Shown: one piece after another, positions 34,686-57,325 of the stretch
How the letters are laid out: each line of letters starts with the position of its first letter
How positions within the stretch are numbered: the first letter of the stretch is position 1
Source of the DNA: Thermohalobaculum xanthum
GTDB taxonomy: Bacteria; Pseudomonadota; Alphaproteobacteria; Rhodobacterales; Rhodobacteraceae
Assembly: GCF_016623495.1 (NCBI RefSeq)
Contig: NZ_JAEHHL010000008.1
Coordinates: 62,001-126,000, forward strand
Length of the DNA: 64,000 nt
Reading direction: 5' to 3'
Position numbers and translations under genes: made by a program
Notes under the pieces: model-generated
What the model saw: only the letters and a program-made list of their open reading frames with translations
The model's database searches: none
Told to the model about the DNA's origin: nothing

Positions 34686-34796
34686 CGGGTCTCGCTTGCG
34701 GCTTGAGCTGCGTCCGGGCCCGGTGTAACGCGCGCGGCCATTGCGGCCGGGATGCCGGCGGGGCGGCCCGTGCAGATCCGGGCGCCGGGGTTCGCG

Positions 34797-34830
34797 TCAT
34801 CCCCGGCCCGTCCGCAACGGACCGGGGTGA
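34797..34830 (-). other. intercistronic hairpin between TAXI binding-protein and permease genes
   Basis: In the 190-base gap between these two minus-strand genes, TCA-CCCCGG-TCCG on one side pairs with CGGA-CCGGGG-TGA on the other. It closes a 3-base CAA loop with small bulges. It has no T-run. It is the third binding-protein gene in the window followed by a GC-rich hairpin. Confidence 0.5.
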
Positions 34831-34875
34831 CCCAGGCGGTCCGCCGGAGAAGCGGGCCGCTTGCGGCGAGGCGGA

Positions 34876-36048: not shown

Positions 36049-36107
36049 GTGTCGTCCTCCCTGAGTTGACCCCGGCCATTGCTGCCGGGCCGCCCGCATC
36101 TCCGGGC

Positions 36108-39508: not shown

Positions 39509-40285
39509 TCATTCGCCGCGAAACGCGGGGCGGCGCTTCTCGATGAAGGCCGCCATGCCTTCCTTGCGGTCCTCGGTCGCGAACAGCAATTGGAACGCCT
39601 TGCGCTCGAGCGCCAGCGCGGCATCGAGCGAGGCGTCCGCCCCCTTCACCACCGCCTCCTTGATTGCCTGCACCGCCAACGGCGGCATGCGCGAGATCGA
39701 GCCCGCCATCTTCAGCGCCGTGTCGAGGACCTCGTCGTCCGGCACGCAGTCGCAGGCCAGCCCCATGCGCAGCGCCTCGGGGCCGGTCACGGGCCTGGCG
39801 GTCAGGCACATCTTCATCGCGTTGAACTTGCCCACGGCACGGGTCAGGCGCTGCGTGCCGCCCGCGCCCGGCATGATGCCCACCCGCACCTCGGGCTGGC
39901 CAAGGCTGGCGCCCTCGCCCACCACGATCAGGTCGCAGGCCATGGCAAGCTCGAGGCCCCCGCCCAGCGCGTGGCCGCGGATGGCCGCGATCACTGGCTG
40001 GGGCGTCGCCGCCACGGTGTTCCAGTAGCGCTCGGACCGCCGTTGCATGATTTCGACCGGCGTCGCGGTGGCGAATTCCTTGAGGTCGGCTCCCGCGGCA
40101 AAGGCCCGATCGTCGCCCGTCAGCACCACCGCGCGCACGCCGGCGTCGTCGTGCAAGGCCGCGAATGCCTCGGCCAGCGCCTTGCGCGTCGCCATGTTCA
40201 GTGCATTCATTGCCTCCGGCCGGTTCAGCCGGACCAGCGCGACGCCGGGCTCGGGCCGCTCGGTGATGACAAGCTGGTCTGACAT
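39509..40285 (-). CDS. enoyl-CoA hydratase
   Basis: This 258-residue crotonase-family enzyme has both catalytic glutamates: one in HALGGGLELAMACD and one in SLGQPEVRVGIMPGAGGTQR. These match the Glu144/Glu164 pair of classical enoyl-CoA hydratase. The oxyanion segment FAAGADLKEF is also present. It should hydrate trans-2-enoyl-CoA. It is divergent from the CoA-degradation operon starting at 40385, with a shared regulatory gap containing an inverted repeat. The long frame upstream of its ATG on this strand is a shadow of the opposite genes. Confidence 0.94.
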   Translation of the reverse strand: MSDQLVITERPEPGVALVRLNRPEAMNALNMATRKALAEAFAALHDDAGVRAVVLTGDDRAFAAGADLKEFATATPVEIMQRRSERYWNTVAATPQPVIAAIRGHALGGGLELAMACDLIVVGEGASLGQPEVRVGIMPGAGGTQRLTRAVGKFNAMKMCLTARPVTGPEALRMGLACDCVPDDEVLDTALKMAGSISRMPPLAVQAIKEAVVKGADASLDAALALERKAFQLLFATEDRKEGMAAFIEKRRPAFRGE

Positions 40286-40301
40286 GGTTTCCCCCTTCCG
40301 C

Positions 40302-40384: not shown

Positions 40385-41890
40385 ATGAAACCTGCGGATG
40401 CAGCCGATTACGTGCTGGGCGTCGCCGGCGCGGGCGCCATGGGCCAGGGCATCGCCCAGGTCGCGGCGGCGGGGGGCATGCGCGTGCTGCTGCTCGACGC
40501 GCGCGAGGGCGCGGCTGCGTCCGCGCGCGACACAATCGCCGGTCGGCTCGCGCGCCTTGCCGAGAAGGGCCGCATCTCGGCCGACGACGCCGAGGCCGCG
40601 GCGGCGCGCATCGAGCCGGTCGCAAGCGTTGCCGCCCTCGCCCCCTGCGATGCGGTGGTCGAGGCCGTGTTCGAGGATCTCGAGGTCAAGCGAAGCCTCT
40701 TCGCCCAGATCGAGGAAGCCGTCGCGCCCGACTGCATCATCGCCTCGAACACCTCGTCGATCCCGATCGCGCTCATCGCCCGCGCCTGCCGTTACCGCGC
40801 GCGCATCGCGGGGCTGCATTTCTTCAACCCCGTGCCACTGATGAAGCTGGTCGAGGTGATCCGCGCCGCCGAGACCGGCGACGAGGTGGTGGAAACGCTG
40901 GTCGGCCTCGGCCGGCGCATGACCCGCGTGCCGGTGGTGGTCAAGGACAGCCCCGGCTTCCTCGTCAACATGGGCGGGCGCGCCTTCACGACCGAAGGCC
41001 TGCGGATCGCGCATGAAGGCGTGGCCACGCCCGCCCAGATCGATGCGATCATGCGCGACTGCCGCGGCTTCCGCATGGGGCCGTTCGAGCTGATGGACCT
41101 CACCGGCATCGACGTGAACTATCCCGTGAGCCAGATCGTGTGGGAGGGCTATCAGCAGGACCGCCGGCTCGCGACCTCGGCCAATCACAAGGCGATGTTC
41201 GATGCGGGGCTGCTGGGCCGCAAGACCGGCGCGGGCTGGTACCGCTACGCCGGCGCCGACCAGGTCGACCCGCCCTCGCCCGATCACCAGACGCAGGCCG
41301 AGCCCGCCCGCACCGTCAGCCTCGCCGAGCAGGACGAGGCCCTCGCCACCTTCGCGGAATCCCTCGGGCTGCGCATCGCGCCGGACGACGGCACGGCACC
41401 GATCCTCGCCGCGCCCATCGGCGACGATGCAACCCATACCGCACTGGCCACCGGCGCGGATTTCCGGCGGCTCGTCTGCATCGACCTCGCCTGCGACACC
41501 TCGCGGCGCGTGACGGTCATGACCGCGCCCGGCGCGGACGCCGCGGCCCGCGACGCGGTCGCGGCGGCCATTGCCGCCTCGGGACGCAAGGTCACCGCGA
41601 TCGGCGACAGCCCCGGCTTCGTCGCCCAGCGCATCGGCTCGATGATCGCAAATCTGGGCTGCCACATGGCCGAGATCGGCCTCGCCACGCCCGCCGACAT
41701 CGAGACCGCGATGCGCCTTGGCCTGAACTACCCGCTCGGCCCGATGGGGCTCGCGGACGATCTCGGCCATTCGACCTGCCTGCGCATCATGGAGCGCCTG
41801 CAGGCGATCACCGGCGACGACCGCTATCGGCCCGCGCTGTGGCTCAAGCGCCGGGCCCTGCTCGGCCTGCCGATCGACACACCCTCCTGA
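40385..41890 (+). CDS. 3-hydroxyacyl-CoA dehydrogenase
   Basis: This 501-residue NAD-dependent enzyme has an N-terminal Rossmann fold (GVAGAGAMGQGIAQVAAAGG) and the CoA/catalytic segment AGLHFFNPVPLMKLVEV with the active-site His. Two successive C-terminal 3HCDH helical domains follow (around MGPFELMDLTGIDVNY and around YPLGPMGLADDLG). The double C-terminal domain and length match PaaH/PaaC-type dehydrogenases. GGGAGGAAGGCGCAAG precedes the ATG. It leads an operon whose genes overlap or nearly touch. Confidence 0.93.
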   Translation: MKPADAADYVLGVAGAGAMGQGIAQVAAAGGMRVLLLDAREGAAASARDTIAGRLARLAEKGRISADDAEAAAARIEPVASVAALAPCDAVVEAVFEDLEVKRSLFAQIEEAVAPDCIIASNTSSIPIALIARACRYRARIAGLHFFNPVPLMKLVEVIRAAETGDEVVETLVGLGRRMTRVPVVVKDSPGFLVNMGGRAFTTEGLRIAHEGVATPAQIDAIMRDCRGFRMGPFELMDLTGIDVNYPVSQIVWEGYQQDRRLATSANHKAMFDAGLLGRKTGAGWYRYAGADQVDPPSPDHQTQAEPARTVSLAEQDEALATFAESLGLRIAPDDGTAPILAAPIGDDATHTALATGADFRRLVCIDLACDTSRRVTVMTAPGADAAARDAVAAAIAASGRKVTAIGDSPGFVAQRIGSMIANLGCHMAEIGLATPADIETAMRLGLNYPLGPMGLADDLGHSTCLRIMERLQAITGDDRYRPALWLKRRALLGLPIDTPS

Positions 41891-41899
41891 CGGGAGCGC

Positions 41900-42616
41900 A
41901 TGATGTCCCGCGACCACGTCCTCGTCACCGGCGTCAGCCGCGGCATCGGCCGCGCCATCGCCGCGCGCCTCGCGGATGACGGCTTCACCGTCATCGGCAT
42001 CTCGCGCCGTCCCGTCCCGGATTTCCGCGGCATCCATCGCGCCATCGACCTCACGGCCCCCGAGGCGCGCGAGGCCCTTGGCGCCATCGCCGCCGAGTTC
42101 GCGCCGCTGCGCCTCGTCGCCAATGCCGGCGTGGTCGAGGCCGCGCCCCTCGACGGCGTGACCACGGCGCAGTTCCAGCACGCGATGCGCGTGAACCTCG
42201 AATCCGTGATCTGGGCCATGCAGGCGCTGGCGCCGGCCATGCGCGGCGCCGGGTTCGGCCGGATCGTGACGCTGGGCTCGCGCGCGGCACTGGGCAAGGC
42301 CGAGCGCGCGGTATACGCGGCGTCGAAGGCGGGGGTTGCCGGCCTCACGCGGTCGATGGCGCTGGAACTCGCGCCGCACGGGATCACGGTGAACTGCGTG
42401 GCACCCGGCCCCATCGACACCGAGATGTTCGCCGAGAACCAGCCCGAGGGCTCGCCCGCGCGCCAGGCGCTCGTCTCCCGCGTGCCGCTCGGCCGGATGG
42501 GCGCGCCCTCGGAAGTGGCTGCCGCCGTCGCCTTCCTCGCGTCGGACCAGGCCTCCTACGTCACCGGGCAGACGATCTATGTCTGCGGCGGCTACAGTGT
42601 CGGAGGGGGTGCATGA
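41900..42616 (+). CDS. short-chain dehydrogenase/reductase
   Basis: This 238-residue SDR has the cofactor motif TGVSRGIGRAI, the catalytic Ser in TLGSRAAL, and YAASKAGVAGLTRSMALELA (YxxxK). It ends in the usual YVTGQTIYVCGGYSVGG region. It resembles FabG-like 3-oxoacyl reductases. In this operon it probably oxidises or reduces a hydroxyacyl-CoA or a ring alcohol. Two ATGs are adjacent (41900 and 41903). Its stop overlaps the ligase start by four bases. Confidence 0.92.
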   Translation: MMSRDHVLVTGVSRGIGRAIAARLADDGFTVIGISRRPVPDFRGIHRAIDLTAPEAREALGAIAAEFAPLRLVANAGVVEAAPLDGVTTAQFQHAMRVNLESVIWAMQALAPAMRGAGFGRIVTLGSRAALGKAERAVYAASKAGVAGLTRSMALELAPHGITVNCVAPGPIDTEMFAENQPEGSPARQALVSRVPLGRMGAPSEVAAAVAFLASDQASYVTGQTIYVCGGYSVGGGA

Positions 42617-44700
42617 CCACGCTCGAGGACCTGCTCTGCCCGCGATCGATCGCCATCGTCGGCGCCTCGGACGACCCGACCCGCATCGGCGGGCGGCCAC
42701 TCTCCCACATGATCAACCAGCGCTTCGACGGCGCGGTCTACCCGGTCAATCCCAAGCGCGAGACGGTGCAGGGATTGCCCGCCTATCCGACGCTGGCCGA
42801 GGTGCCGGGCGAGGTCGACTTCGTCCTCGTCGCCGTGCCCGCCGCGGGCGTGGCCGAGGTCGTCCGGCAGGCCGCCGAGAAACACGCCAGAACGGTCCTG
42901 ATCTTCTCGTCGGGCTTCGCCGAGATGGGCGGTGATGGCATCGCCATGCAGGCCGAGCTCAGCCGCCTCGCCCGCGAGACCGGGGTGCGCGTCATCGGCC
43001 CCAACTGCCTCGGCGCCTTCAACTCGGCGACTCGGTTCTACCCGACCTTCACCTCGACCATCGACCGCGCGACGCCCGTGCCCGGCGGCATCTCGATCGC
43101 CTCGCAGTCGGGCGCCTATGGCAGCCACATCTACATGGTCAGCCACCTGCGCGGCCTCGGCATCCGCTACTGGCTGACCACCGGCAACGAGGCGGACCTG
43201 CACATCGCCGAATGCATCCGCCTGCTGGCCGAGAACGACGACGTCCACACCATCATGGCCTATGCCGAGTCGGTGAAGGACGGCCCCATGCTGTCCGAGG
43301 CGCTCGAGACCGCTCGCGCCGCCCGCAAGCCGGTGATCTTCATGAAGGTCGGCCGCTCGGCGGTCGGGGCGGCGGCGGCCTCGTCGCACACGGCCTCGCT
43401 GGCGGGCGAGGACGCGATCTACGACGCGGTGCTGCGGAGCCACGGTGCATGGCGGGCCAGGTCGACCGAGGAAATGCTCGACATCGCCTATGCCTGCCGG
43501 CCGCGCATCTATCCCGCCGGTCGGCGGCTGGGGCTCGTCACCATCTCGGGCGGCGCGGGCGTGCTGATGGCCGATGCCGCCGAGGATGCGGGACTCGACG
43601 TCGCCCCGATGCCGGCCGACGCGCAGGCCGAGATCAAGCAGGTGGTCCCCTTCGCCTCGGCCCTCAACCCGGTCGATGTCACGGCGCAATTCTTCAACGA
43701 TCTTAGCCTTGTGCCTCGTTTTACCAAGGCGATGCTGGAGCGCGGCGGCTATGACGGCCTGATCGGCTTCTGGACCTCGGTCGCGGGCTCGCCGGTGCTG
43801 GCAACGCCACTGCTCAAGTCCCTGACCCAGGCCATGAAAGGCCGCGAGGACCAGATCTTCCTGCAATCGGTCGTCGCGCCCGACGAGATCCGCAAGGCCT
43901 ACGAGGACGCGGGCTTTCCCTGTTTCGAGGACCCCACCCGCGCGGTGAACGCAATGGCAGCGCTGATGGCCTTTGGCATCGCGTTCGAGAAGGGGCGCGC
44001 CGATATGCCCGAGGCGCCGGCCCTGCCCCCACTGCCCGATGGCCCGATGGGTGAGCGCGAAGCCAAGCGCCTCCTGGCGGAGGCCGGCCTGCCGGTGGTC
44101 GAGGATCGTCTGGTGAGAAGCGCCGAAGAAGCAGCCGAGGCGGCCCGCGAGTTCGGCCGGTCGGCCTTCAAGATCGCCTCGCCCGACATCCTGCACAAGA
44201 CCGAGGCGGGCGGCGTTCGCCTTGGCGTCACGGCCGATGATGCGGCGGCCGCCTTCGAGCGGATCATGGCCTCGGCCCGCGCCCATGACAGCAAGGCGCG
44301 GCTCGATGGCGTACTGGTCTCGCCCATGATCGAGGGAGGCGTCGAGATGATTCTGGGCGCCCGGATCGACCCGGTCTTCGGCCCCGTGGTCATGGCGGGT
44401 CTGGGGGGCGTCTTTACCGAGATCTTTCGCGACGTCAGCTTCCGCCGCGCGCCGGTCTCGGCCGACACGGCCATGGAAATGCTCGACGAACTCAAGGGCT
44501 CCGCCCTGCTCAAGGGCGCCCGCGGCCAGCCCGCGGCTGACGCGAGGTCATTGGCCCAAGCCCTTTCCCAGCTCTCGATTTTCGCCGCCGCACATGCCAA
44601 CACGCTCGAGAGCGTCGAGATGAACCCCGTCCGCGCCCTGCCCGACGGCGCGGTCGCGCTCGACGCCCTGATCGTCACGCGAAAGGACCGAGCGTCATGA
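42613..44700 (+). CDS. acetate--CoA ligase (ADP-forming)/acyl-CoA synthetase family protein
   Basis: This 695-residue protein has an N-terminal CoA-binding domain (SIAIVGASDDPTRIGGRPL) and a succinyl-CoA ligase-like middle containing ASQSGAYGSHIY. It also has the phospho-His loop SSHTASLAGEDA, and a C-terminal ATP-grasp domain (MGEREAKRLLAEAGLPVVED onward). This single-chain order is that of ADP-forming acyl-CoA synthetases. It likely activates the pathway substrate or a free-acid intermediate to its CoA ester. It overlaps its two neighbours by four bases each. Confidence 0.9.
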   Translation: MTTLEDLLCPRSIAIVGASDDPTRIGGRPLSHMINQRFDGAVYPVNPKRETVQGLPAYPTLAEVPGEVDFVLVAVPAAGVAEVVRQAAEKHARTVLIFSSGFAEMGGDGIAMQAELSRLARETGVRVIGPNCLGAFNSATRFYPTFTSTIDRATPVPGGISIASQSGAYGSHIYMVSHLRGLGIRYWLTTGNEADLHIAECIRLLAENDDVHTIMAYAESVKDGPMLSEALETARAARKPVIFMKVGRSAVGAAAASSHTASLAGEDAIYDAVLRSHGAWRARSTEEMLDIAYACRPRIYPAGRRLGLVTISGGAGVLMADAAEDAGLDVAPMPADAQAEIKQVVPFASALNPVDVTAQFFNDLSLVPRFTKAMLERGGYDGLIGFWTSVAGSPVLATPLLKSLTQAMKGREDQIFLQSVVAPDEIRKAYEDAGFPCFEDPTRAVNAMAALMAFGIAFEKGRADMPEAPALPPLPDGPMGEREAKRLLAEAGLPVVEDRLVRSAEEAAEAAREFGRSAFKIASPDILHKTEAGGVRLGVTADDAAAAFERIMASARAHDSKARLDGVLVSPMIEGGVEMILGARIDPVFGPVVMAGLGGVFTEIFRDVSFRRAPVSADTAMEMLDELKGSALLKGARGQPAADARSLAQALSQLSIFAAAHANTLESVEMNPVRALPDGAVALDALIVTRKDRAS

Positions 44701-45686
44701 CCCTGCCCCCCGCCCTCAGCCGGCTGCGCCTGCCGGTGATCGGCGCGCCGCTGTTCATCATCTCGAACCCCGACCTCGTGCTCGCGCAGTGCAAGGCCGG
44801 GATCGTCGGCGCGTTCCCCGCGCTGAACGGGCGCGAGGCGCCGGGCGACCCGATCGAGCTCGAGACCTGGCTGCGCCGCATCACCGAGGAGCTCGACCGC
44901 CACAACCAGGCGAACCCCGACAACCCGGCCGCGCCCTTCGCGGTGAACCAGATCGTGCACCGCTCGAACGCCCGCCTGCAGCGCGACATCGAGATCTGCC
45001 ACAAGTGGCGCGTGCCGGTCTGGATCACTTCGCTCGGCGCCCGTCCCGAGGTGAACGAGGCGGCCCATGACTGCGGCGCCATCGTGCTTCACGACGTCAT
45101 CAACGACCGCTTCGCCCGCAAGGCGATCGAGAAGGGCGCCGACGGGCTGATCGCGGTCGCGGCCGGCGCGGGCGGCCATGCCGGCACCACCTCGCCCTTC
45201 GCGCTGATCCACGAAATCCGCGCCTGGTTCGACGGGCCCGTGGCACTGTCGGGCGCCATCGCCACCGGTGACGCGGTGCTCGCCGCACAGGCCATGGGGG
45301 CCGACCTCGCCTATATCGGCTCGGCCTTCATCGCCACCCACGAGGCCCGCGCCTCCGAGGCCTACAAGCGCATGGTCGTGGAATCGAGCTCGGACGACAT
45401 CGTCTATTCGAGCCTCTTCACCGGGGTGCACGGCAACTACCTCAAGGGCTCGGTCCGCGCCGCCGGGATGGACCCCGACAACCTGCCCGAGAGCGACCCC
45501 TCGAAGATGGACTTCGCCTCGGGCTCGTCGAAGCCGAAAAGCTGGAAGGACATCTGGGGCGCGGGCCAGGGCGTCGGCGCGGTGCACGAGGTCACGGCGG
45601 CGGCCCAACTCGTGGACCGGCTTGCCCGCGAATACGATGCGGCGCGCGCGCGGCTCGGCCTCTCGTCGGCCCGCGCGGCCGAGTGA
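44697..45686 (+). CDS. nitronate monooxygenase-like FMN flavoprotein
   Basis: This 329-residue TIM-barrel flavoprotein has an N-terminal LRLPVIGAPLFIISNPDLV and a central GAGGHAGTTSPFALI, which binds the FMN phosphate. GPVALSGAIATGDAVLAAQ and ADLAYIGSAFIAT follow, as in NMO/2-nitropropane dioxygenase and FabK-type enoyl reductases. In a CoA-thioester operon it may be an enoyl-CoA reductase or an oxygenase on a CoA substrate rather than a nitronate detoxifier, which is an inference. It overlaps the ligase gene by four bases. Confidence 0.88.
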   Translation: MTLPPALSRLRLPVIGAPLFIISNPDLVLAQCKAGIVGAFPALNGREAPGDPIELETWLRRITEELDRHNQANPDNPAAPFAVNQIVHRSNARLQRDIEICHKWRVPVWITSLGARPEVNEAAHDCGAIVLHDVINDRFARKAIEKGADGLIAVAAGAGGHAGTTSPFALIHEIRAWFDGPVALSGAIATGDAVLAAQAMGADLAYIGSAFIATHEARASEAYKRMVVESSSDDIVYSSLFTGVHGNYLKGSVRAAGMDPDNLPESDPSKMDFASGSSKPKSWKDIWGAGQGVGAVHEVTAAAQLVDRLAREYDAARARLGLSSARAAE

Positions 45687-45766: not shown

Positions 45767-46159
45767 ATGGAAGCTGGCTATTTCGACGGTCCGGGCCCCG
45801 AGGCCCGGTTCAAGGCCTACCTCGCCGAGGGGCGCTTCATGATCCAGCGCTCGCGCTCGAACGGCGCACATGTCTTCTATCCGCGCGTCGCCATGCCCGG
45901 CACCGGCGAGGCCGATCTCGACTGGGTCGAGGCCTCGGGCCTCGGCACCGTCTATGCCACCACCTGCAACCGCGCGCGTCCCGAGCATGGCGGCGACTAC
46001 AACATCGCCCTCATCGACCTCGACGAGGGCCCGCGTATGATGGCCCGGGTCGAGGGCATCGCACCCGACGCGGTGACCATCGGGATGCGGGTCCGCGCCA
46101 CCATCGGCGAGATCAAGGGCGAGCCCGCCGTCATCTTCCAGCCGGAGGGCGCGTCATGA
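45767..46159 (+). CDS. OB-fold DUF35 protein without zinc-ribbon cysteines
   Basis: This 130-residue protein matches DUF35/ChsH2-type partners of SCP2 thiolases. A short helix is followed by a degenerate ribbon (RSNGAHVFYPRVAMPGTG) and an OB-fold (GLGTVYATTCNRARPEHGG, then LIDLDEGPRMMARVEG). The four ribbon Cys are missing, and the only Cys in the protein is in TTCNR. It probably forms a complex with the thiolase-like protein encoded next, which starts in its last codons. I chose the ATG at 45767 because GGGAGGAAGACG lies before it. The frame opens earlier but overlaps the flavoprotein gene. Confidence 0.85.
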   Translation: MEAGYFDGPGPEARFKAYLAEGRFMIQRSRSNGAHVFYPRVAMPGTGEADLDWVEASGLGTVYATTCNRARPEHGGDYNIALIDLDEGPRMMARVEGIAPDAVTIGMRVRATIGEIKGEPAVIFQPEGAS

Positions 46160-47322
46160 GCCTGCGCGGAAAAGCCGCCTGTGTCGGCCTCGCCACCGCC
46201 GGCTGCGGCGAGGCGCCCGGCCGCAACGCGATGGAGCTGATGGCCGAGGCCGTGGTCAGGGCGCTCGACGATGCGCAAATCCCGCTCGCCAAGGTCGACG
46301 GCCTCTTCGCCGCCACCGCCTTCCATTCCATGGCCGCGATGTCCCTGGCCGAGCATCTGGGGATTCAGCCCAAGTTCTCCGACGGCTCGAACATCGGCGG
46401 CTCGTCCTTCATGGCGCATGCGCTGATGGCCGCCATGGCACTCGATGCCGGGCTGATCGAGGTGGCGGTGATCGCCTACGGCTCGAACCAGCGCACGGCT
46501 GGCGGCTTCAAGTCGATCTCCGAGCCGATGCCTTTCGAGGCGATCTATGGGCCACGCAACCCGATCACGGCCTATGCTCTGGCAACCTCGCGCTATTGCC
46601 ACGAGTTCGGCGCCACTCGCGAGGATCTGGCCGAGGTCGCGGTCTCGGCCCGCGCCTGGGCGAACCTCAACCCCGAGGCCTTCGCCCGCGGCCCTCTCGG
46701 TGTCGCTGACGTAACCGGCGCGCGAATGATCTCGGACCCGCTGGGCAAGCTCGACTGCTGCCTCGTCACCGACGGCGCCGCAGCGATCGTCCTGACCCGC
46801 CCCGAGCGCGCCAAGGACGGGCCGCGCACGCCGGTCTACCTGCTGGGCGCGGCGATGGAGCATCACCACCGCATGATCTCGGCCATGCCCTCGCTCACCA
46901 CCACCGCGGCGGCGGCGTCGGGCCCGCGCGCCTTCGCCATGGCCGGCTGCACGCCCGCGGACATGGACACGGTGCAGCTCTACGACGCCTTCACCATCAA
47001 CACGATCCTCTTCCTCGAGGATCTCGGCTTCTGCGCCAAGGGCGAGGGCAAGGACTTCGTCAGGCGCGGCCGCATCGCCCCGGGCGGCGCGCTCGCCGTC
47101 AACACCAATGGCGGCGGGCTTTCTTGCGTGCATCCGGGGATGTACGGCCTCTTCGTCACCATCGAGGCGATCCGCCAGATCCGCGCCGCCGCCGGCGACG
47201 ACGAGGGGCCGCGCGAACCCGGCGGCTGGATCCCCGGCGCCAGGCTCAGCCTTGCCCACGGCAATGGCGGCGTGCTCTCGAGCCAGGTGACAAGCATCTG
47301 GGGCCACGGCGACACGCTCTGA
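46156..47322 (+). CDS. SCP2-type thiolase-like protein lacking the nucleophilic Cys
   Basis: This 388-residue protein has the thiolase fold of the SCP2/Ltp2 group. At the position of the usual nucleophilic Cys it has Ser (NIGGSSFMAHALMAAMA). The VNTNGGGLSCVHPGMYG loop keeps the His region, while the C-terminal CxG motif is replaced by LAHGNGGVLSSQ. Thiolase-like proteins that lack this Cys and are paired with a DUF35 protein act as retro-aldolases in sterol side-chain degradation (Ltp2-ChsH2). I infer an aldol-type side-chain cleavage of a 3-hydroxyacyl-CoA. It overlaps the DUF35 gene by four bases. Confidence 0.88.
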   Translation: MSLRGKAACVGLATAGCGEAPGRNAMELMAEAVVRALDDAQIPLAKVDGLFAATAFHSMAAMSLAEHLGIQPKFSDGSNIGGSSFMAHALMAAMALDAGLIEVAVIAYGSNQRTAGGFKSISEPMPFEAIYGPRNPITAYALATSRYCHEFGATREDLAEVAVSARAWANLNPEAFARGPLGVADVTGARMISDPLGKLDCCLVTDGAAAIVLTRPERAKDGPRTPVYLLGAAMEHHHRMISAMPSLTTTAAAASGPRAFAMAGCTPADMDTVQLYDAFTINTILFLEDLGFCAKGEGKDFVRRGRIAPGGALAVNTNGGGLSCVHPGMYGLFVTIEAIRQIRAAAGDDEGPREPGGWIPGARLSLAHGNGGVLSSQVTSIWGHGDTL

Positions 47323-47333
47323 GGAGAACCGCG

Positions 47334-48530
47334 ATGGAACTCACCTACAGCCCCGCCGAGCAGGCGTTCCGCACTGAGGTGCGGGACTGGATCCGCGAGA
47401 ACCTGCCTCCCGCCCTCGCGGCCAAGGTCAGGGGCGGCAAACGCCTCTCCAAGGCCGATTACGAGCTTTGGCACGCCCGGCTCCAGACCCGCAACTGGCT
47501 CGCCTGGCACTGGCCGGTCGAGCATGGCGGGCCCGGCTGGACCCCGGTGCAGAAGCACATCTTCGACGAGGAGATGATCGCCGCCGGCGCGCCGCGGATC
47601 ATCCCCTTCGGCGTCAACATGCTTGGCCCGGTGCTGATCGAGTTCGGCACCGAGGCGCAGAAGGCCCGCTGGCTGCCGCGGATCCTGGACGGCTCGGACT
47701 GGTGGTGCCAGGGCTATTCCGAGCCGGGCGCGGGCTCCGACCTCGCCTCGCTGCGCACCCGCGCGGTGCGCCAGGGCGACCATTACGTCGTCAACGGCCA
47801 GAAGACATGGACGACGCTGGGCCACCACGCGAACATGATGTTCTGCCTCGCGCGCACCGACCCAGATGCGAAGCCCCAGGAGGGCATCAGCTTCCTGCTG
47901 ATCGACATGGCCTCGCCCGGGATCGAGGTCCGCCCCATCGTCACCCTCGACGGCGAGCACGAGGTCAACGAGGTCTGGCTGACTGACGTGAAGGTGCCCG
48001 CCAAGAACCTCGTGGGCGAGGAGAACAGGGGCTGGACCTGCGCCAAGTACCTGCTGGGCTTCGAGCGCACCGGCATCGCCGGCGTAGCATTCTCGAAGGC
48101 CGCGCTGTCGCATCTCAAGCGCGTGGCGCGCGAGCGCCGCAAGGATGGCCGCCCGCTGGCTGAAAACCCTTTCTTCGCCGCCCGCATGGCGCGGCTCGAG
48201 ATCGACCTGATGGCGATGGACATCTTCAACCTGCGCATGATCGCAGCGGCCGCGCAGGGCAAGTCGCCGGGCCCCGAGGCGTCGCTCCTGAAGATCAAGG
48301 GCACCGAGGTCCGGCAGGAGGCCTCCGACCTGATCCGCCGCGCGCTGGGGCCCTACGCCATGCCCTTCCTGCCCGAGGCGCTTGACGAGGGCTGGAACGG
48401 AGAGCCGGTCGGCCCCGACTACGCCAACACCGCCGCCACCCAGTATTTCAACCTGCGCAAGACCTCGATCTACGGCGGGTCGAACGAGATCCAGAAGAAC
48501 ATCTACGCCAAGCTCGCGCTCGACCTCTGA
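47334..48530 (+). CDS. acyl-CoA dehydrogenase, probable catalytic subunit
   Basis: This 398-residue FAD enzyme has CQGYSEPGAGSDLASL (flavin and substrate contact) and the C-terminal IYGGSNEIQKNIYAKLAL motif. The usual Y-E-G catalytic Glu near the C-terminus is Gly (IYGGS). Glu in LLGFERTGIAG aligns by eye with the alternative catalytic Glu of isovaleryl-CoA dehydrogenases. The next gene encodes a second acyl-CoA dehydrogenase without that Glu. Together they look like the two-subunit FadE enzymes of sterol catabolism. GGAGAACCGCG precedes the ATG. Confidence 0.92.
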   Translation: MELTYSPAEQAFRTEVRDWIRENLPPALAAKVRGGKRLSKADYELWHARLQTRNWLAWHWPVEHGGPGWTPVQKHIFDEEMIAAGAPRIIPFGVNMLGPVLIEFGTEAQKARWLPRILDGSDWWCQGYSEPGAGSDLASLRTRAVRQGDHYVVNGQKTWTTLGHHANMMFCLARTDPDAKPQEGISFLLIDMASPGIEVRPIVTLDGEHEVNEVWLTDVKVPAKNLVGEENRGWTCAKYLLGFERTGIAGVAFSKAALSHLKRVARERRKDGRPLAENPFFAARMARLEIDLMAMDIFNLRMIAAAAQGKSPGPEASLLKIKGTEVRQEASDLIRRALGPYAMPFLPEALDEGWNGEPVGPDYANTAATQYFNLRKTSIYGGSNEIQKNIYAKLALDL

Positions 48531-48539
48531 GGGGGACCC

Positions 48540-49661
48540 ATGGACTTCACGCTCTCGGAAGAACGGCGGATGCTGGTGGAAACGGCCCAGCGCTTCCTGC
48601 GCGACCGCTACGACATGCCGACCCGCCACAAGGCCGCCGCCGCGCCGGACGGCTTCGATCGGGCTTTGTGGGCCGACATGGCCGAACTCGGCCTGATCGG
48701 TGCGCTGGTGCCGCCCGAGGCCGGCGGCTTCGGCGGCGCAGGCGAGGACGTGGCGCTGGTGTTCGAGCAGGTCGGGCGAGGCCTCGTGGTCGAGCCATTC
48801 CTCGCGTCGGGCGTGCTGGGTCTCTGGCCGCTGGTCCGCGCCGGCGAGACCGCTCTGGTCGAGCAGGTGATGGCGGGCGAGACCATAGCCGCCTTCGCCC
48901 ATGGCGAGCCCGACGGGCGCTACGGCCTGGCCGAGGTGTCGACCCGGGCCGCCGAGGGCGACGGCTGGCGCATCACCGGCGCGAAGGCGGTCGTGCTCAA
49001 CGGCGACGCGGCCGACGTCCTGATCGTCTCGGCCCGCGTGTCCGGCGATGCGGATGCCGAGGACGGGCTCGGCCTCTTCCTGGTCGAGGCGGCGGGCCCC
49101 GGCGTCACCCGCCGCGGCTATGGCACGGTCGATGGCGCGCGCGCGGCCGAGATCGTCTTCGACGAGGCGCCCGCCCGCCCGCTGGGCGAGCCGGGCCGCG
49201 GCTTCGCGCTGATCGAGGAGACCATGGGCCGCGGCGTCCTCGCCCTCGCCGCCGAGGCGGTCGGGCTCATGGAGGTCTGCAAGGACACAACGCTCGACTA
49301 CCTCAGGACGCGCAAGCAGTTTGGAAGGCCGCTCGGCGCCTTCCAGGCGCTGCAGCACCGCATGGTCGAGATGGTGCTCGAGATCGAGCAGGCCCGTTCG
49401 GCGGTGATGCTGGCCGCCGGAACCTTCGAGGCCGACCGCCTCACCCGCGAGCGCAACCTCGCCGCCGCCAAGCACCTCACCGGCCGCGTCGGCCGGATGG
49501 TCGCCGAGGAGGCGATCCAGCTTCACGGCGGCATCGCCATGACCTGGGAGTACCCGCTGCCGCATTACGCCAAGCGGCTGGTGATGCTCGACCACCTGCT
49601 GGGCGACACGGACCATCACCTCGAGCGGTTCATCCGGTTGGGCCGGGAGGACGCGGCATGA
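48540..49661 (+). CDS. acyl-CoA dehydrogenase, probable non-catalytic partner
   Basis: This 373-residue acyl-CoA dehydrogenase fold has an N-terminal LSEERRMLVETAQRFLRDRY and a conserved ALVPPEAGGFGGAGEDVALV. C-terminal features are the RKQFGRPLGAFQALQHRMVE helix and EEAIQLHGGIAMTWEYPL. The catalytic Glu site that reads FERTG in the partner reads MGRGVLALAA here, so Glu is Gly. The protein probably forms a heterotetramer with the upstream product. It starts 9 bases after that gene and overlaps the next by four. Confidence 0.9.
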   Translation: MDFTLSEERRMLVETAQRFLRDRYDMPTRHKAAAAPDGFDRALWADMAELGLIGALVPPEAGGFGGAGEDVALVFEQVGRGLVVEPFLASGVLGLWPLVRAGETALVEQVMAGETIAAFAHGEPDGRYGLAEVSTRAAEGDGWRITGAKAVVLNGDAADVLIVSARVSGDADAEDGLGLFLVEAAGPGVTRRGYGTVDGARAAEIVFDEAPARPLGEPGRGFALIEETMGRGVLALAAEAVGLMEVCKDTTLDYLRTRKQFGRPLGAFQALQHRMVEMVLEIEQARSAVMLAAGTFEADRLTRERNLAAAKHLTGRVGRMVAEEAIQLHGGIAMTWEYPLPHYAKRLVMLDHLLGDTDHHLERFIRLGREDAA

Positions 49662-50437
49662 CCGAGGGGCGCATCGGGCTCGAGCGCAAGGACGCGGTCC
49701 TGACCGTCACCAACAACGACCCGGCCACGCGCAACGCGCTGAGCTGGGATTTCTACGACGGCTTCCGCGAGATCCTCGACGAGGCCGCCGATGACGCGCG
49801 CACACGCGCCATCGTGCTGACCGGCGCGGGCGGTTTCTTCTGCTCGGGCGGCAATGTCTCTGGCCTCGCCGAGCGCGCCAGAGCCACCCACGCGGTGCGC
49901 CGCTCCTCGGTCGAGCGGCTCCACGGCATGATTCGGGCGATGCGCGGCTGCCCAAAGCCCATCGTCGCCGCGATCGAGGGGGGCGCGGCTGGCGCGGGTG
50001 TCTCGATGGCGCTGGCCTGCGACCTGATCGTCGCGGCGCGCGAGTCCTATGTCTCGGTGGCCTATGTGCGCATCGGGCTCACGCCGGACGGGGGCGCCAC
50101 CGCGATGCTGGGCCGCGCCCTGCCCCGCCAGCTGGTCACCGAGATGGTGATGACCGGCGATCGCGTGGGCGCCGAGCGGCTGCATGCGCTGGGCCTCGTG
50201 AACCGCCTGACGGCGCCAGGCGCTGCGCTGGCCGAGGCCCAGGCCCTCGCCGCGCGGCTGGCCGAGGGGCCCGCTGGCGCGCTGGCCGCGGGCAAGGCGC
50301 TGATCGGCGGCGCGGCCGAGGAAAGCCTCGACGGCCAGCTCGACGCCGAGGCGGCGGCGATCGCCGAGGCCCTTGGCGGGCGCGAGGCGGCCGAGGGGAT
50401 CGCGGCGTTCCTCGAGAAGCGCAAGCCCCGCTGGTAG
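49658..50437 (+). CDS. crotonase-family protein, PaaG-like isomerase type
   Basis: This 259-residue crotonase fold has a normal oxyanion segment (FFCSGGNVSGLAER and IEGGAAGAGVSMALACD). Both hydratase glutamates are absent: Ser at the first site and Tyr at the second (VSVAYVRIGLTPDGG). The Asp in LTPDGG matches the catalytic Asp of PaaG-like enoyl-CoA isomerases. Double-bond isomerisation is therefore more likely than hydration. Hydration could be done by the enzyme encoded at 39509-40285. It ends the operon. Confidence 0.88.
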   Translation: MTEGRIGLERKDAVLTVTNNDPATRNALSWDFYDGFREILDEAADDARTRAIVLTGAGGFFCSGGNVSGLAERARATHAVRRSSVERLHGMIRAMRGCPKPIVAAIEGGAAGAGVSMALACDLIVAARESYVSVAYVRIGLTPDGGATAMLGRALPRQLVTEMVMTGDRVGAERLHALGLVNRLTAPGAALAEAQALAARLAEGPAGALAAGKALIGGAAEESLDGQLDAEAAAIAEALGGREAAEGIAAFLEKRKPRW

Positions 50438-51903: not shown

Positions 51904-52778
51904 CCATCGTCAACCTGGGCTCGATCAACATCGATCATGTCCACCGCGTGCCCCGCTTCCCGGCGCCGGGCGAGACCCTGGCCGATCTCGCCTACAGCGC
52001 GGGCCTCGGCGGCAAGGGCCTCAACCAGTCGCTCGCGGCAGCGGCGGCGGGGGCGCGGGTGATCCACGCGGGCGCGGTCGGCGCAGACGGGGTCTGGGCG
52101 GTCGAGAGGCTGGCGGCCGCAGGGATCGACACCTCCGGCATCGCCACCGTGTCCGAGGCCACGGGCCACGCCGTGATCCTCGTCGACCCCGAGGGTGAGA
52201 ACCAGATCGTCATCCACGGGGGCGCGAACCGCACGGTCCCGGCCGCGGCAGTCGAGGCGGCGATCGCCGGCGCCCACCACGGCGACTGGTTCCTCGCGCA
52301 GAACGAGACCAACGGCACCGTCGAGGCCGCCGCGGCAGCGAAGGCCGCGGGCCTGCGGGTCGCCTATTCCGCCGCTCCCTTCGACGCGACCGCCTGCGCC
52401 GAGATACTGCCTCATGCCGACCTGCTCATGGTCAACGAGGGCGAGGCGATCAGCCTCGCGGCCCATCTCGGCCGCGCGCCGCAGGGTGTCGCCATCCTGG
52501 TGACCCTGGGCGCGCGCGGCGCGCGCCACATCGGCCCGGACGGGCGCACCGAAACCCCGGCCATCCCGGTCACACCCGTCGACACGACGGGCGCCGGCGA
52601 TTGCTTCTGCGGCTATTTCCTCGCCGGGCTCGATGCCGGGCTGCCGGTATCTCGCGCCCTTCGCCGCGCGGCGGCGGCGGCGGCGATCTGCGTGACCCGC
52701 CCCGGCGCCGCCGACGCGATCCCAACCGGCTCCGAGGTCGACGCCTTCCTCGCCACCCGCGACCCGGAGGTCTCATGA
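51900..52778 (+). CDS. PfkB/ribokinase-family sugar kinase
   Basis: This 292-residue kinase has the N-terminal VNLGSINIDHVHRVPRFPAP and the GGKGLNQSLAAAAAGA substrate segment. The C-terminal VDTTGAGDCFCGYFLAGL contains the anion-hole GAGD catalytic Asp. The order and length are those of ribokinase. It likely phosphorylates ribose freed by the nucleoside hydrolase encoded next. It could instead phosphorylate the nucleoside itself, and both options fit the family. It overlaps both neighbours by four bases. Confidence 0.9.
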   Translation: MTIVNLGSINIDHVHRVPRFPAPGETLADLAYSAGLGGKGLNQSLAAAAAGARVIHAGAVGADGVWAVERLAAAGIDTSGIATVSEATGHAVILVDPEGENQIVIHGGANRTVPAAAVEAAIAGAHHGDWFLAQNETNGTVEAAAAAKAAGLRVAYSAAPFDATACAEILPHADLLMVNEGEAISLAAHLGRAPQGVAILVTLGARGARHIGPDGRTETPAIPVTPVDTTGAGDCFCGYFLAGLDAGLPVSRALRRAAAAAAICVTRPGAADAIPTGSEVDAFLATRDPEVS

Positions 52779-53701
52779 CACCCAACCGCATCATCATCGA
52801 CACCGATCCGGGGATCGACGACGCCATGGCCATCCTGCTGGCCATGGCCGATCCGCGGATCGAGCTGATGGGCCTCACCTGCATCTTCGGCAACGTCCCG
52901 GTCGAACGCGCCACCCGCAACGCGCTCTGGCTGACCGAGATCGCCCGCCATCCCTGCCTCGTCGCCCAGGGCGCGCGCCACCCGCTGATGCGCCCGCCCC
53001 AGGACCATCCCGACTTCGTCCACGGCGTCGAGGGTTTCGGCGCCGAACCCGCGCCAGCCCCCCGCGCAACGCCCGACCCCCGCGGTGCCGCGCGTTTCCT
53101 GTGCGAGAGCGTGGCCGAGCACCCGGGCGAGATCACTCTCATCGCCGTCGGTCCGCTCACCAACCTTGCCGAGGCCCTGGCGCACGACCCCGCCATCGCC
53201 CGCGGGGTGAAGGGCGTGATCGTCATGGGGGGCGCTCTGCGGGTCCCTGGCAACGTCACGTCCCATGCCGAGGCGAACATCTGGCAGGACCCCGAGGCCG
53301 CGGCGGCGGTGTTCGCGGCCGACTGGCCCGTGACGCTCGTCGGCCTCGACGTGACCGAGGCCGTTCACGGCACGGCCGCGGACTTCGCCGCGATCGCCCG
53401 CGCGGCCCCCGAGGCGGGTGGCTTCCTCGACCGCGCGGTGCAGTTCTATTTCGCGTTCCACCGCGACGCGCACGGTCTCGACGGATGCCACATGCACGAC
53501 CCCACCGCGGTGATCGCGCTCACCGATCCCGGCCTTTTCACGATCCACGAGACCCCCGTCCGCGTGATCACCGAGGGCGCCGAGGCCGGCCGCACGGTCG
53601 AGGGCGGCACCGGCCCGCGGCTGCGCGCCTGCCTGGGCGTCGATGCGGCCGCCGTGATGGAGGTTTACCGATCAACACTTTCCAATGGGCGCTTGCCGTG
53701 A
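52775..53701 (+). CDS. nucleoside hydrolase
   Basis: This 308-residue enzyme of the inosine-uridine nucleoside N-ribohydrolase family has the Ca2+-binding N-terminal motif IDTDPGIDDAMAILLAM. GEITLIAVGPLTNLAEAL and GVIVMGGALRVPGN are conserved in the middle. The late CHMHDPTAVIALTDP supplies the catalytic His/Asp region. It should split a nucleoside to base and ribose in the cytoplasm after import. Base preference is not evident. Confidence 0.93.
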   Translation: MTPNRIIIDTDPGIDDAMAILLAMADPRIELMGLTCIFGNVPVERATRNALWLTEIARHPCLVAQGARHPLMRPPQDHPDFVHGVEGFGAEPAPAPRATPDPRGAARFLCESVAEHPGEITLIAVGPLTNLAEALAHDPAIARGVKGVIVMGGALRVPGNVTSHAEANIWQDPEAAAAVFAADWPVTLVGLDVTEAVHGTAADFAAIARAAPEAGGFLDRAVQFYFAFHRDAHGLDGCHMHDPTAVIALTDPGLFTIHETPVRVITEGAEAGRTVEGGTGPRLRACLGVDAAAVMEVYRSTLSNGRLP

Positions 53702-54648: not shown

Positions 54649-55647
54649 ATGCGTGTGATCAGCCTTCTTGCCGGCGTGGCGCTTGGCGTCGTCGCGACGG
54701 CCGCCAGCGCGGCCGACTTCAAGCCCGCGGTCGTGTTCGACATGGGCGGCAAGTTCGACAAGTCGTTCAACGAGGGCGTCTGGAACGGCGTCAAGAAGTT
54801 CATGGACGAGTCCGGCGTCGAGGTCATGGAGTTCGAGGTCACCAACGAGACCCAGCGCGAGCAGGCCATGCGCCGCATGGTCAGCCGCGGCGCCACTATC
54901 GTGCTGGGCGTGGGCTTTGCCCAGGCCGACGCGATCGACAAGGTCGCCGCCGAGCATCCGGACATCCAGTTCGCGATCATCGACGTAAGCTGGCTCGACC
55001 GGCCGAACCTGCGGCAGTACGCCTTCAAGGAGCACGAGGGCAGCTACCTCGTCGGCGTCGCGGCTGCGAACAAGTCCGAGACGGGCAAGGTCGGCTTCGT
55101 CGGCGGCATGGACATCCCGCTGATCCGCAAGTTCGCCTGCGGCTATGTCCAGGGCGCCAAGGAAACGGCTGACGGCACCGAGGTGCTGCAGAACATGACC
55201 GGCACCACGCCCACCGCATGGAACGACCCGACCAAGGGAGCCGAGCTTGCGCAGAGCCAGATCGACCGCGGCGCCGACGTGATCTACCACGCGGCCGGCG
55301 GCACCGGGCTTGGCGTGATCCGCGCGACGGCGGATGCCGACAAGCTCGCGATCGGCGTCGACTCGAACCAGAACGGCATTGCCCCGGGGCATGTGCTGAC
55401 CTCGATGGTCAAGCGCGTGGACGTCGCCGCCTATGAGACCTTCAAGGACGCGATGGACGGCAATTTCACGAGCGGCGTGAAGATCCTCGGTCTCGCCGAG
55501 AACGGCGTCGACTGGGCGGTCGACGAGAACAACGCACCGCTTCTGACCGACGACCTGAAGGCGGCCGTCGAGGCCGCGCGCGAGGGCATCATCGCGGGAA
55601 CCATCAAGGTCCATAACTACGAGGACACGGGCTCCTGCCCGTACTGA
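54649..55647 (+). CDS. BMP-family ABC transporter substrate-binding protein
   Basis: This 332-residue periplasmic protein has a signal peptide (MRVISLLAGVALGVVATAAS, cleavage near ASA-A). The BMP/PnrA hallmark FDMGGKFDKSFNEGVWNGVK follows directly. VGFVGGMDIPLIRKFACGYV and AIGVDSNQNGIAPGHVLTSM are also diagnostic. Characterised members bind purine or pyrimidine nucleosides. There is no lipobox. GGGAGCAACGAG precedes the ATG. It serves the importer encoded by the next three genes. Confidence 0.94.
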   Translation: MRVISLLAGVALGVVATAASAADFKPAVVFDMGGKFDKSFNEGVWNGVKKFMDESGVEVMEFEVTNETQREQAMRRMVSRGATIVLGVGFAQADAIDKVAAEHPDIQFAIIDVSWLDRPNLRQYAFKEHEGSYLVGVAAANKSETGKVGFVGGMDIPLIRKFACGYVQGAKETADGTEVLQNMTGTTPTAWNDPTKGAELAQSQIDRGADVIYHAAGGTGLGVIRATADADKLAIGVDSNQNGIAPGHVLTSMVKRVDVAAYETFKDAMDGNFTSGVKILGLAENGVDWAVDENNAPLLTDDLKAAVEAAREGIIAGTIKVHNYEDTGSCPY

Positions 55648-55654
55648 GTCGCAG

Positions 55655-57325
55655 GTGAACCCCGACGACCGCGCCGGGGGCACGCCCCCGGCTGTGCGGC
55701 TCAGCGGCATTTCGAAACGCTTCGGCGCGGTGCAGGCCAACCGCGACGTCGACCTCGAGGTCGCTCGTGGCTCGATCCACGGCATCATCGGCGAGAATGG
55801 CGCCGGCAAGTCGACGCTGGTCTCGATCCTTTACGGCTTCTACGAGGCCGACGCGGGCCGCATCGAGATCGACGGGCATGTGGTGGCGATCCGGTCCTCC
55901 GCCGCCGCCATCGCGCAAGGCATCGGAATGGTGCACCAGCACTTCATGCTGGTCCCGACCTTCACGGTGCTGGAAAATGTCATGCTCGGGGCCGAGGGCG
56001 GCCCGCTGCTTGCCCGAGGCGCGGCGGAAACGCGGGCCGAGCTTCTCGATCTCTCAACGGCTTACGGGCTCGAGGTCGATCCCGACGCGAAGGTGGGCGA
56101 CCTCGCGGTGGGATTGCAGCAACGCGTCGAGATCCTCAAGGCGCTGCGGCGCGGCGCCAGGATCCTCATCCTCGATGAGCCCACGGGGGTCCTGACGCCT
56201 GACGAGACCGGCCGGCTGTTCGACATCCTGCGCGGCCTGCGGCGCGAGGGCGTCACGATCCTTCTGATCACCCACAAGCTGCGCGAGATCATGGCGGTGA
56301 CCGACCGGGTCTCGGTCATGCGCCAGGGCGAGATGGTGGCCCATCGCGAGACGGCCTCGACCACGCCCGAGGAGCTAGCCGAGCTGATGGTCGGCCGCCG
56401 TGTCGCCGCCATGCCGCGGCGCGAGCTCGTCGCGGCCCTCGGGGTCGACGCCGGCGGCGGCGGCACGCCACGAGCGCGATCCCGGCCGCAACCCAATGCC
56501 GGCGCGCTCGAGGTGCGCGGCCTGGGATGGCGCGATGCTCGGGGCATCACGCGCCTTTCCGATGTTTCCCTGACCCTGCGCGAGGGCGAGATCCTCGGGC
56601 TCGCCGGCGTCGCCGGCAACGGGCAGTCCGAACTGCTCGACGTCCTGTCAGGGATCGCCACCCCACAATCGGGCGTGATCCGCATCGGCGAGAGGATCAT
56701 CAACCGCGACCGCCCAGCGGGCCCGGCCGAACTGCGGGCCCTTGGCCTAGCCCATGTCCCCGAAGACCGCCACCGCCGCGGTGTCGTGCTGGGCTTCACG
56801 GCACAGGAGAACGCCGTTCTCGGCTACCAGCACGGCCCGGCCGCCGGCGACGGTCGGCTCCTCAGCCCGGCCGCCCTCGCCTGCCACTGCGCGGCATTGA
56901 TGAAACGCTTCGACGTGCGCCCCGCCGCGCCGGGCCTGCGGATGTCGGGCTTCTCTGGCGGAAACCAGCAAAAGCTCGTGCTCGCCCGCGAGATCGAGGC
57001 CGAACCGCGTATCCTTCTGGTCGGGCAGCCCACGCGCGGCGTCGATATCGGGGCGATCGAGTTCATCCATGGCGAGATCCTGAAGCTTCGCGACCAGGGC
57101 TGCGCGATCCTGCTCGTCTCGGTCGAGCTCGACGAGATCCTCGCCCTCGCGGACCGCGTGGCGGTGATGAATGCGGGTCGCATCGTCGGCGAGCGCCGCC
57201 TCTCGGGCATCGACGCCGAGGACCGATCCGAGATCGGGCTGATGATGGCCGGCATCGCGCGCATCCGCGAACCGGCAGCTGCCCGCCCGGCCGCCAGTCC
57301 CGAGGCCGGGAGCGCCGAGGCATGA
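55655..57325 (+). CDS. nucleoside ABC transporter, double ATP-binding protein (RbsA/BmpE type)
   Basis: This 556-residue protein has two ATPase domains. The first has GENGAGKST, the variant signature LAVGLQQRVEILKAL and Walker B ILILDEPTGVLTP. The second has a variant Walker A (GVAGNGQSELL), a normal FSGGNQQKLVLAREIE signature and LLVGQPTRGVDIGA. This unequal pair is usual for sugar/nucleoside RbsA-like proteins. The start codon is GTG at 55655, 7 bases after the binding-protein stop, with a weak ribosome binding site. The stop overlaps the permease start by four bases. Confidence 0.93.
   Translation: MNPDDRAGGTPPAVRLSGISKRFGAVQANRDVDLEVARGSIHGIIGENGAGKSTLVSILYGFYEADAGRIEIDGHVVAIRSSAAAIAQGIGMVHQHFMLVPTFTVLENVMLGAEGGPLLARGAAETRAELLDLSTAYGLEVDPDAKVGDLAVGLQQRVEILKALRRGARILILDEPTGVLTPDETGRLFDILRGLRREGVTILLITHKLREIMAVTDRVSVMRQGEMVAHRETASTTPEELAELMVGRRVAAMPRRELVAALGVDAGGGGTPRARSRPQPNAGALEVRGLGWRDARGITRLSDVSLTLREGEILGLAGVAGNGQSELLDVLSGIATPQSGVIRIGERIINRDRPAGPAELRALGLAHVPEDRHRRGVVLGFTAQENAVLGYQHGPAAGDGRLLSPAALACHCAALMKRFDVRPAAPGLRMSGFSGGNQQKLVLAREIEAEPRILLVGQPTRGVDIGAIEFIHGEILKLRDQGCAILLVSVELDEILALADRVAVMNAGRIVGERRLSGIDAEDRSEIGLMMAGIARIREPAAARPAASPEAGSAEA

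Follow-up and report, generated by a model that had tools for sequence, protein, structure and literature searches.

Two adjoining genes of Thermohalobaculum xanthum raise the question of which reaction can be carried out by a thiolase homologue that lacks the nucleophilic cysteine and is paired with a DUF35 protein that lacks the zinc ligands. The window, i.e. the whole 64,000-nucleotide stretch of DNA that was analysed, encodes a DUF35 protein of 130 amino acids and a thiolase homologue of 388 amino acids, and an ATGA at 46156-46159 forms a 4-base overlap between the two genes. The DUF35 protein contains the expected OB-fold domain (Pfam OB_ChsH2_C, 71.4 bits, cut-off 27.1), and the thiolase homologue was matched by Pfam Thiolase_C_1 (191.1 bits, cut-off 28) and assigned to its family by NCBIfam PRK06158/NF004811 (574.9 bits, cut-off 421). 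These profile matches and the overlapping genes on the + strand bear out the pairing that had been put forward in a preliminary description of this DNA. The pair and its neighbours are as follows.

39509-40300, - strand: enoyl-CoA hydratase (PRK08138, 384 bits, cut-off 355; start codon provisional)
40385-41890, + strand: 3-hydroxyacyl-CoA dehydrogenase (PRK08268, 578 bits, cut-off 508)
41900-42616, + strand: SDR oxidoreductase
42613-44700, + strand: ADP-forming acyl-CoA synthetase (one-chain acetate--CoA ligase family)
44697-45686, + strand: nitronate-monooxygenase-like FMN protein, a conserved neighbour
45767-46159, + strand: DUF35/ChsH2-type protein, with a zinc-ribbon-like loop (residues 23-56; S29, N32, M43 and T46 at the Cys places) and an OB fold (residues 57-130)
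46156-47322, + strand: PRK06158-type thiolase-like protein, with Gly82 at the nucleophile place, Y276-D-A-F, H326-P and H368
47334-48530, + strand: acyl-CoA dehydrogenase (best NCBIfam model PimC large subunit, 448 bits, under the cut-off of 624)
48540-49661, + strand: acyl-CoA dehydrogenase (best NCBIfam model PimD small subunit, 316 bits, under the cut-off of 653)
49658-50437, + strand: enoyl-CoA hydratase/isomerase (oxepin_alt model, 339.5 bits, cut-off 300)

The catalytic columns of the thiolase-like protein were placed by a joint alignment with DUF35-type Cys thiolases, whose consensus motifs are N-A-C-A-S-G, H-D-C-F and G-H-P. The nucleophile Cys column, which in catalytic thiolases lies at the start of the N-terminal helix (81-98 in the model), falls on Gly82 (N-I-G-G-S-S-F). 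The HDxF His column corresponds to Tyr276 (Y-D-A-F) and the GHP His column to His326, the H326-P327 motif being kept. The nucleophilic Cys is therefore absent, as first described, but serine, which had been proposed to replace it, is the following residue and is ruled out in this role by the Gly in the column. Likewise, the term Cys-less applies to the catalytic place and not to the whole protein, which holds eight cysteines. We defined the family as the 107 PRK06158-like loci with a phmmer score of at least 390 to the window protein. G81-G82, Y276 and H326-P were kept in all 107 of them, YDAF in 106 and H368 in 102, and the conservation of G81-G82, H326 and YDAF indicates that the change at the nucleophile place is not due to chance. 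Of 151 loci, 150 have Gly at this place and the remaining one is gapped there; in 11 of the 151 (L128-L131, L133-L137, L150 and L034) a Cys was observed one residue past the Gly (GGC). The protein might also be a thiolase that cleaves or condenses with another nucleophile, e.g. Ser83, as residue 83 is Ser in 91 of the 107 loci (SS in 68, SA in 23). Its replacement by Ala in 15 loci and by Gly in one, together with the position of the Cys column, makes this extremely unlikely.

DUF35 membership was judged by PF01796 plus PF12172. When the window DUF35 protein was aligned with the zinc-binding TcChsH2 chain using HMMER, the four zinc places read S29, N32, M43 and T46. None of the C4 or C3H1 ligands expected of a zinc ribbon is thus provided by a Cys at these places, in agreement with the reported loss of all ribbon cysteines. 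The sole Cys of the protein, C67, is located in the OB fold, and histidines are found at positions 35 and 74. In a Pfam scan, the zinc-ribbon model (zf-ChsH2) gave no match in the window protein and matched 39 of 82 members. The ribbon was nevertheless folded in an AlphaFold single-chain model computed without metal (pLDDT 93.3; ribbon block means 93-97), which superimposed on Trf with a Z score of 15.9 and on the DUF35 chains that bind zinc in the Ltp2 and Sal complexes with a Z score of 15.4 (6ok1_B). dN/dS values against eight relatives were about 0.3-0.7 for the ribbon and 0.2-0.5 for the OB part, denoting purifying selection on the ribbon that is somewhat weaker than on the OB part. The ribbon looks constrained rather than decaying, and a recent decay of the zinc site is not favoured.

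A DUF35 gene was found directly upstream of the thiolase gene, at 100 nt or less, in 104 of the 107 family loci; among the exceptions, L049 and L062 begin about 120 bases or less from a contig end. In L116, the DUF35 gene lies on the strand opposite to the thiolase, which sets this locus apart from the rest of the paired loci in the family. Among named genomes, that of Limibaculum sediminis came closest in the scan, with a thiolase 94% identical, and a close copy was present in all four further Limibaculum genomes searched. We infer that the two window proteins associate in a complex like that of Ltp2 and ChsH2(DUF35).

The absence of the zinc site had been taken to indicate a divergent form of such a complex. 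Its distribution was examined in 148 paired loci, obtained from the 151 by excluding three in which no DUF35 match lay on the strand of the thiolase; L001-L007, which duplicate the window or L008, were also left out of the counts. No zinc Cys was retained in 86 of these loci, one in 13, four in 49, and two or three in none, in a set where L118-L157 and L179-L198 were hand-picked to span identity bands or scores rather than at random, where L010 and L042 are the same sequence from two collections, and where L066 was scored as having no Cys while its ribbon half lies outside the frame read. The 13 one-Cys loci keep only the first zinc Cys. Within the family of the window protein, zinc Cys were absent altogether in 83 of 107 loci. 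In L034 (1118-1492) the ribbon loop of the DUF35 partner is also several residues shorter, besides having no Cys. Among the 99 loci without four Cys, Ser or Thr occupied the former Cys places 1 to 4 in 70/85, 89/97, 15/98 and 87/98 readable cells, respectively (cells with Cys or a gap excluded), for a background of Ser plus Thr of 10.7%. Three other residues were kept more often in zinc-free than in zinc-type members, namely R28 (91% vs 18%), D50 (88% vs 41%) and W53 (99% vs 59%), these percentages being calculated from 81 readable zinc-free and 17 zinc-type family loci with no correction for relatedness.

A careful tree of 75 family thiolases required 8 changes of zinc state (7-8 in bootstrap trees), at least 4 of which were forced by well-supported branches, and the grouping of the C4 rows as one clade was rejected (AU p 0.0038). 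As the C4 members do not form one clade, the zinc state must have changed several times. Trees alone cannot separate gain from loss, but since a simultaneous regain of four Cys is implausible, the changes are read as losses. A quick tree of 117 rows, from which rows short or gapped at the first zinc place (146 of 151 left) and then rows more than 90% alike had been removed, gave 13 changes, 7 of them forced for C4 by starred branches; the 75-row tree is preferred because two long branches meet in the larger one. The comparison of thiolase columns with zinc state yielded 3 supported independent pairs, too few for a sign test. Judged from these alignments and trees, zinc loss proves to be a common and repeatedly evolved feature, indeed the majority state of the family, and not a divergent form or an oddity of this genome. 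A search of the open-access literature brought up no report of DUF35 partners without zinc, and according to passages of a 2019 paper, zinc is bound by every DUF35 protein of known structure (PMC6996347). The automatic names of NCBI already split "OB-fold domain-containing" from "Zn-ribbon domain-containing OB-fold" proteins. The repeated losses suggest that the metal is dispensable for the fold or for pairing.

Loss of the zinc site does not depend on the absence of the thiolase nucleophile. In the 30 Cys-thiolase loci that were read, a DUF35 match was found for 16 and none nearby for the other 14. The full Cys pattern was seen in 13 of the 16 matches and was missing from L190 and L195; L178 was cut off before the ribbon. 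In L190 (2945-4405, - strand) and L195 (2964-4457, - strand), proteins that by eye are HMG-CoA-synthase-DUF35-like fusions adjoin Cys thiolases and display Cys-x2-Thr with no later Cys pair, so that only the first zinc Cys is kept, apparently an independent case of the same change. Since zinc has been lost beside at least these two true Cys thiolases, and many Cys-less thiolases have C4 DUF35 partners, the two losses are not linked.

The same genome also contains a second pair (L008, 10336-11870), whose thiolase is 54% identical to that of the window and whose DUF35 protein holds all four Cys (R-C-A-P-C-G and C-R-S-C-G). It is surrounded by genes for an enoyl-CoA hydratase, an SDR, a MaoC-type hydratase, acyl-CoA dehydrogenases and a branched-chain-type ABC transporter. 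The presence of a zinc-type and a zinc-free pair in one cell speaks against a genome-wide cause of zinc loss, and such pairs offer a direct test of the need for the metal.

A role in sterol side-chain degradation had been suggested at first. An aldolase of the Ltp2 or Sal type acting on sterol or bile-acid side chains would agree with the fold and the catalytic Tyr that the window protein has in common with 6ok1 and 9myr, and with the paired acyl-CoA dehydrogenases that adjoin the window pair. In the genome of this organism (99.94% complete), PRK12845, which we take to be the 3-ketosteroid dehydrogenase (KstD-type) model, gave a match of only 54 bits for a cut-off of 793, and neither of the two DUF35 genes present in all (130 and 129 aa) is fused to MaoC. 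Moreover, the Ltp2-like model PRK07855 scored the window protein at 231 bits, under its cut-off of 469, compared with 583 bits for an Ltp2-like protein of plasmid pIBU218. The single weak ring marker and the missing MaoC-DUF35 fusion make a steroid substrate unlikely, and the sterol role, which was not borne out, is in our opinion very improbable.

The gene order 3-hydroxyacyl-CoA dehydrogenase, (SDR), acyl-CoA synthetase, nitronate monooxygenase, DUF35, thiolase, two acyl-CoA dehydrogenases and enoyl-CoA hydratase recurs in Limibaculum, Neomegalonema and several Kiloniellaceae, and is partly preserved elsewhere. Among 82 loci, where neighbour counts are depressed by short contigs, matches to the window genes were recovered for the synthetase in 33, the acyl-CoA dehydrogenases in 37 and 36, the hydratases in 36 and 33, the SDR in 24, and the 3-hydroxyacyl-CoA dehydrogenase and the nitronate-monooxygenase-like protein in 19 each. 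A literature search on the latter neighbour gave no lead. Other family members reside in different neighbourhoods, so that the family probably serves several substrates. Upstream of the cluster, an IclR regulator, a DctM-type TRAP permease (32745-34685) and an NMT1-like solute receptor (34876-36099) are encoded at 31924-36099 on the - strand, and possibly represent its control and its importer. On the other side, a pfkB-type kinase and a nucleoside hydrolase (Pfam; 51918-53701, + strand), followed by what appear from their translations to be a purine-type lipoprotein receptor and an ABC ATPase (54649-57325, + strand), have the look of a separate nucleoside-use cluster. An alphaproteobacterial-type cluster with an 82% identical thiolase was also observed in L040. 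The title of this contig names Oceanobacillus sp. HTM 045 (Bacillota), and its assembly is probably misnamed or mixed. A 62% identical thiolase adjoining an OB-fold protein was found at 486066-487205 of NZ_CP131792.1, an 847 kb plasmid of a Pseudomonas aeruginosa blood isolate.

The AlphaFold single-chain model of the window thiolase-like protein gave Z scores of 51.9 to 4u4e, 51.7 to CtSal and 51.0 to TcLtp2, which are counted as tied because they lie within 1, and of about 36 to classic thiolases. Passages of a study on Sal (PMC12329534) give Tyr294 of YDHF and Tyr344 as the catalytic residues of TcLtp2, and Tyr302 and Cys304 of YDCY as essential in CtSal, where changing Cys304 to Ala, Ser or His led to total loss of activity; Sal also has Gly at the Cys place. 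A HMMER alignment identified Tyr276 as the shared catalytic Tyr, Ala278 as the equivalent of Sal Cys304 and Ltp2 His296, and His326 as the equivalent of Ltp2 Tyr344, and it likewise placed a Gly at the Cys place in Ltp2. The Tyr base of YDHF is therefore present, whereas the His of this motif and the second Tyr of Ltp2 are replaced by Ala278 and His326, and the YDC motif with the essential Cys of Sal is replaced by YDAF. As judged from these residues, the window enzyme keeps the putative base and has a candidate acid of its own and, while differing from Ltp2 and Sal at their remaining catalytic residues, could work like them.

The lack of a nucleophile, a fold closest to Ltp2, Sal and 4u4e, and the conserved Tyr make an aldolase-type reaction the best reading. 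We consider it fairly probable that the pair is a complex of the Ltp2-ChsH2 kind, in which the thiolase-like subunit would be a retro-aldol C-C lyase acting on a 3-hydroxyacyl-CoA and the DUF35 protein a metal-free scaffold. The substrate would be a 3-hydroxyacyl-CoA with a hydroxyl carbon unsuited to ordinary thiolysis, prepared by activation (42613), alpha-beta desaturation (47334 and 48540) and hydration (39509 and 49658), in this presumed order. Tyr276, the base in Ltp2 and Sal, would deprotonate the hydroxyl, the bond to the alpha carbon would break, and the CoA enolate would be held in the old thiolase oxyanion pocket, to be protonated by His326, at the place of the Ltp2 acid Tyr344, or by a neighbour, the choice of acid being a guess from position. 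An aldehyde or ketone and a short acyl-CoA would be released. Gly82 in place of Cys may leave room for the substrate and would exclude acyl-enzyme chemistry, and the ribbon of the scaffolding DUF35 subunit is predicted to fold without metal, with Ser/Thr at three of the four Cys places in most members.

Against this aldolase reading stand the Ala found at the place of Sal Cys304, where the same change abolishes Sal activity, and the 3-hydroxyacyl-CoA dehydrogenase of the cluster, which is compatible with ordinary 3-keto chemistry, canonical thiolases being encoded outside the cluster. No canonical thiolase was found among the cluster proteins scanned; elsewhere in the genome there are four strong PF00108 matches. 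Together with the change of two of the three Cys-enzyme residues, this dehydrogenase and these thiolases could mean that the protein is a non-catalytic acyl-CoA scaffold passing on intermediates for canonical thiolases to cleave. A mere scaffold would not need G82, Y276 and H326, invariant across the family, nor the largely conserved H368, and this explanation is unlikely. Cys-free proteins of the thiolase fold can also form the enolate from CoA esters of the malonyl or alkylmalonyl type, and a decarboxylase of this sort would account for the missing nucleophile and the retained His326, and TbSLP is described as slowly decarboxylating malonyl-CoA in the same passages in which CtSal gave no such activity (PMC12329534). 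With no carboxylase among the cluster proteins scanned, and dehydrogenases and hydratases there that make 3-hydroxyacyl-CoA, we find it rather unlikely as well.

A literature search found no shown activity for PRK06158 members, which carry names such as thiolase or acetyl-CoA acetyltransferase, as seen on plasmids. If the retro-aldol reading is true, these names are wrong, the family consists of C-C lyases, and its members could be of use in biocatalysis or pollutant breakdown. More speculatively, and with doubt prevailing, the DUF35 zinc site may be a removable tuning part, lost many times in Cys-less thiolase complexes with convergent Cys-to-Ser/Thr changes that close the ribbon metal-free. 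Each loss would reset the accepted acyl group, which is conceivable because the ribbon packs on a helix shaping the substrate pocket, as described for CtShy-CtSal, or would free the enzyme from zinc supply. PRK06158 would then be a large and as yet unassigned set of Tyr-His aldolases that occur in marine and soil proteobacteria and act on bulky or tertiary 3-hydroxyacyl-CoAs other than steroids.

Among known systems, the DUF35-type Cys thiolases (PRK12578-like proteins, the benzoylsuccinyl-CoA thiolase BbsB and the archaeal acetoacetyl-CoA thiolase) share with the window pair the two-gene architecture and the GHP His. They differ from it by their nucleophile Cys and HDxF motif and by DUF35 proteins that mostly keep four Cys (13 of 15 readable), where that of the window keeps none. 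Ltp2-ChsH2(DUF35) (6ok1) and Sal-Shy(DUF35) (9myr) have in common with the window pair the fold, the DUF35 partner, the Gly at the Cys place and the catalytic Tyr; they are distinguished by YDHF and Tyr344 (Ltp2), YDCY (Sal), steroid substrates and DUF35 domains that bind zinc, as C4 and C3H1 in the passages cited (PMC12329534). The closest solved structure is 4u4e, a putative thiolase of Sphaerobacter thermophilus from structural genomics, about 46% identical in the fold alignment, whose title gives no partner or function. Like the window protein, it reads GGSSF around the nucleophile position and HP at that of the His, and it has YDSF where the window protein has YDAF.

Of the relatives linked to a role by genetics, the closest is the IpfD/IpfE pair of ibuprofen degradation, located on pIBU218 through accession numbers given in PMC11347016. 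Passages of PMC9195938, in which the mutant loci are given differently in table and text, tie ipfD (thiolase-like) and ipfE (DUF35) to growth on ibuprofen by transposon mutants, and those of PMC11347016 assign the reaction as release of propionyl-CoA and isobutylcatechol. By analogy, this would be equivalent in form to the retro-aldol cleavage of a beta-hydroxy thioester. A ring-hydroxylating dioxygenase and an AMP-binding CoA ligase are among the neighbours of IpfD/IpfE, and neither was found among the window proteins scanned (about 27-54 kb). A second pair of pIBU218 associates a four-Cys DUF35 protein with a thiolase-like protein bearing YDHF. IpfD is 33% identical to the window protein (hhalign) and has Tyr where the latter has His326. 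Its best NCBIfam model is PRK06158, as for the window protein, at 287 bits, under the cut-off of 421. Both proteins have Gly at the Cys place and both have YDAF, and IpfE, like the window DUF35 protein, is without a zinc site, reading H and T, with a single Cys close to the third place.
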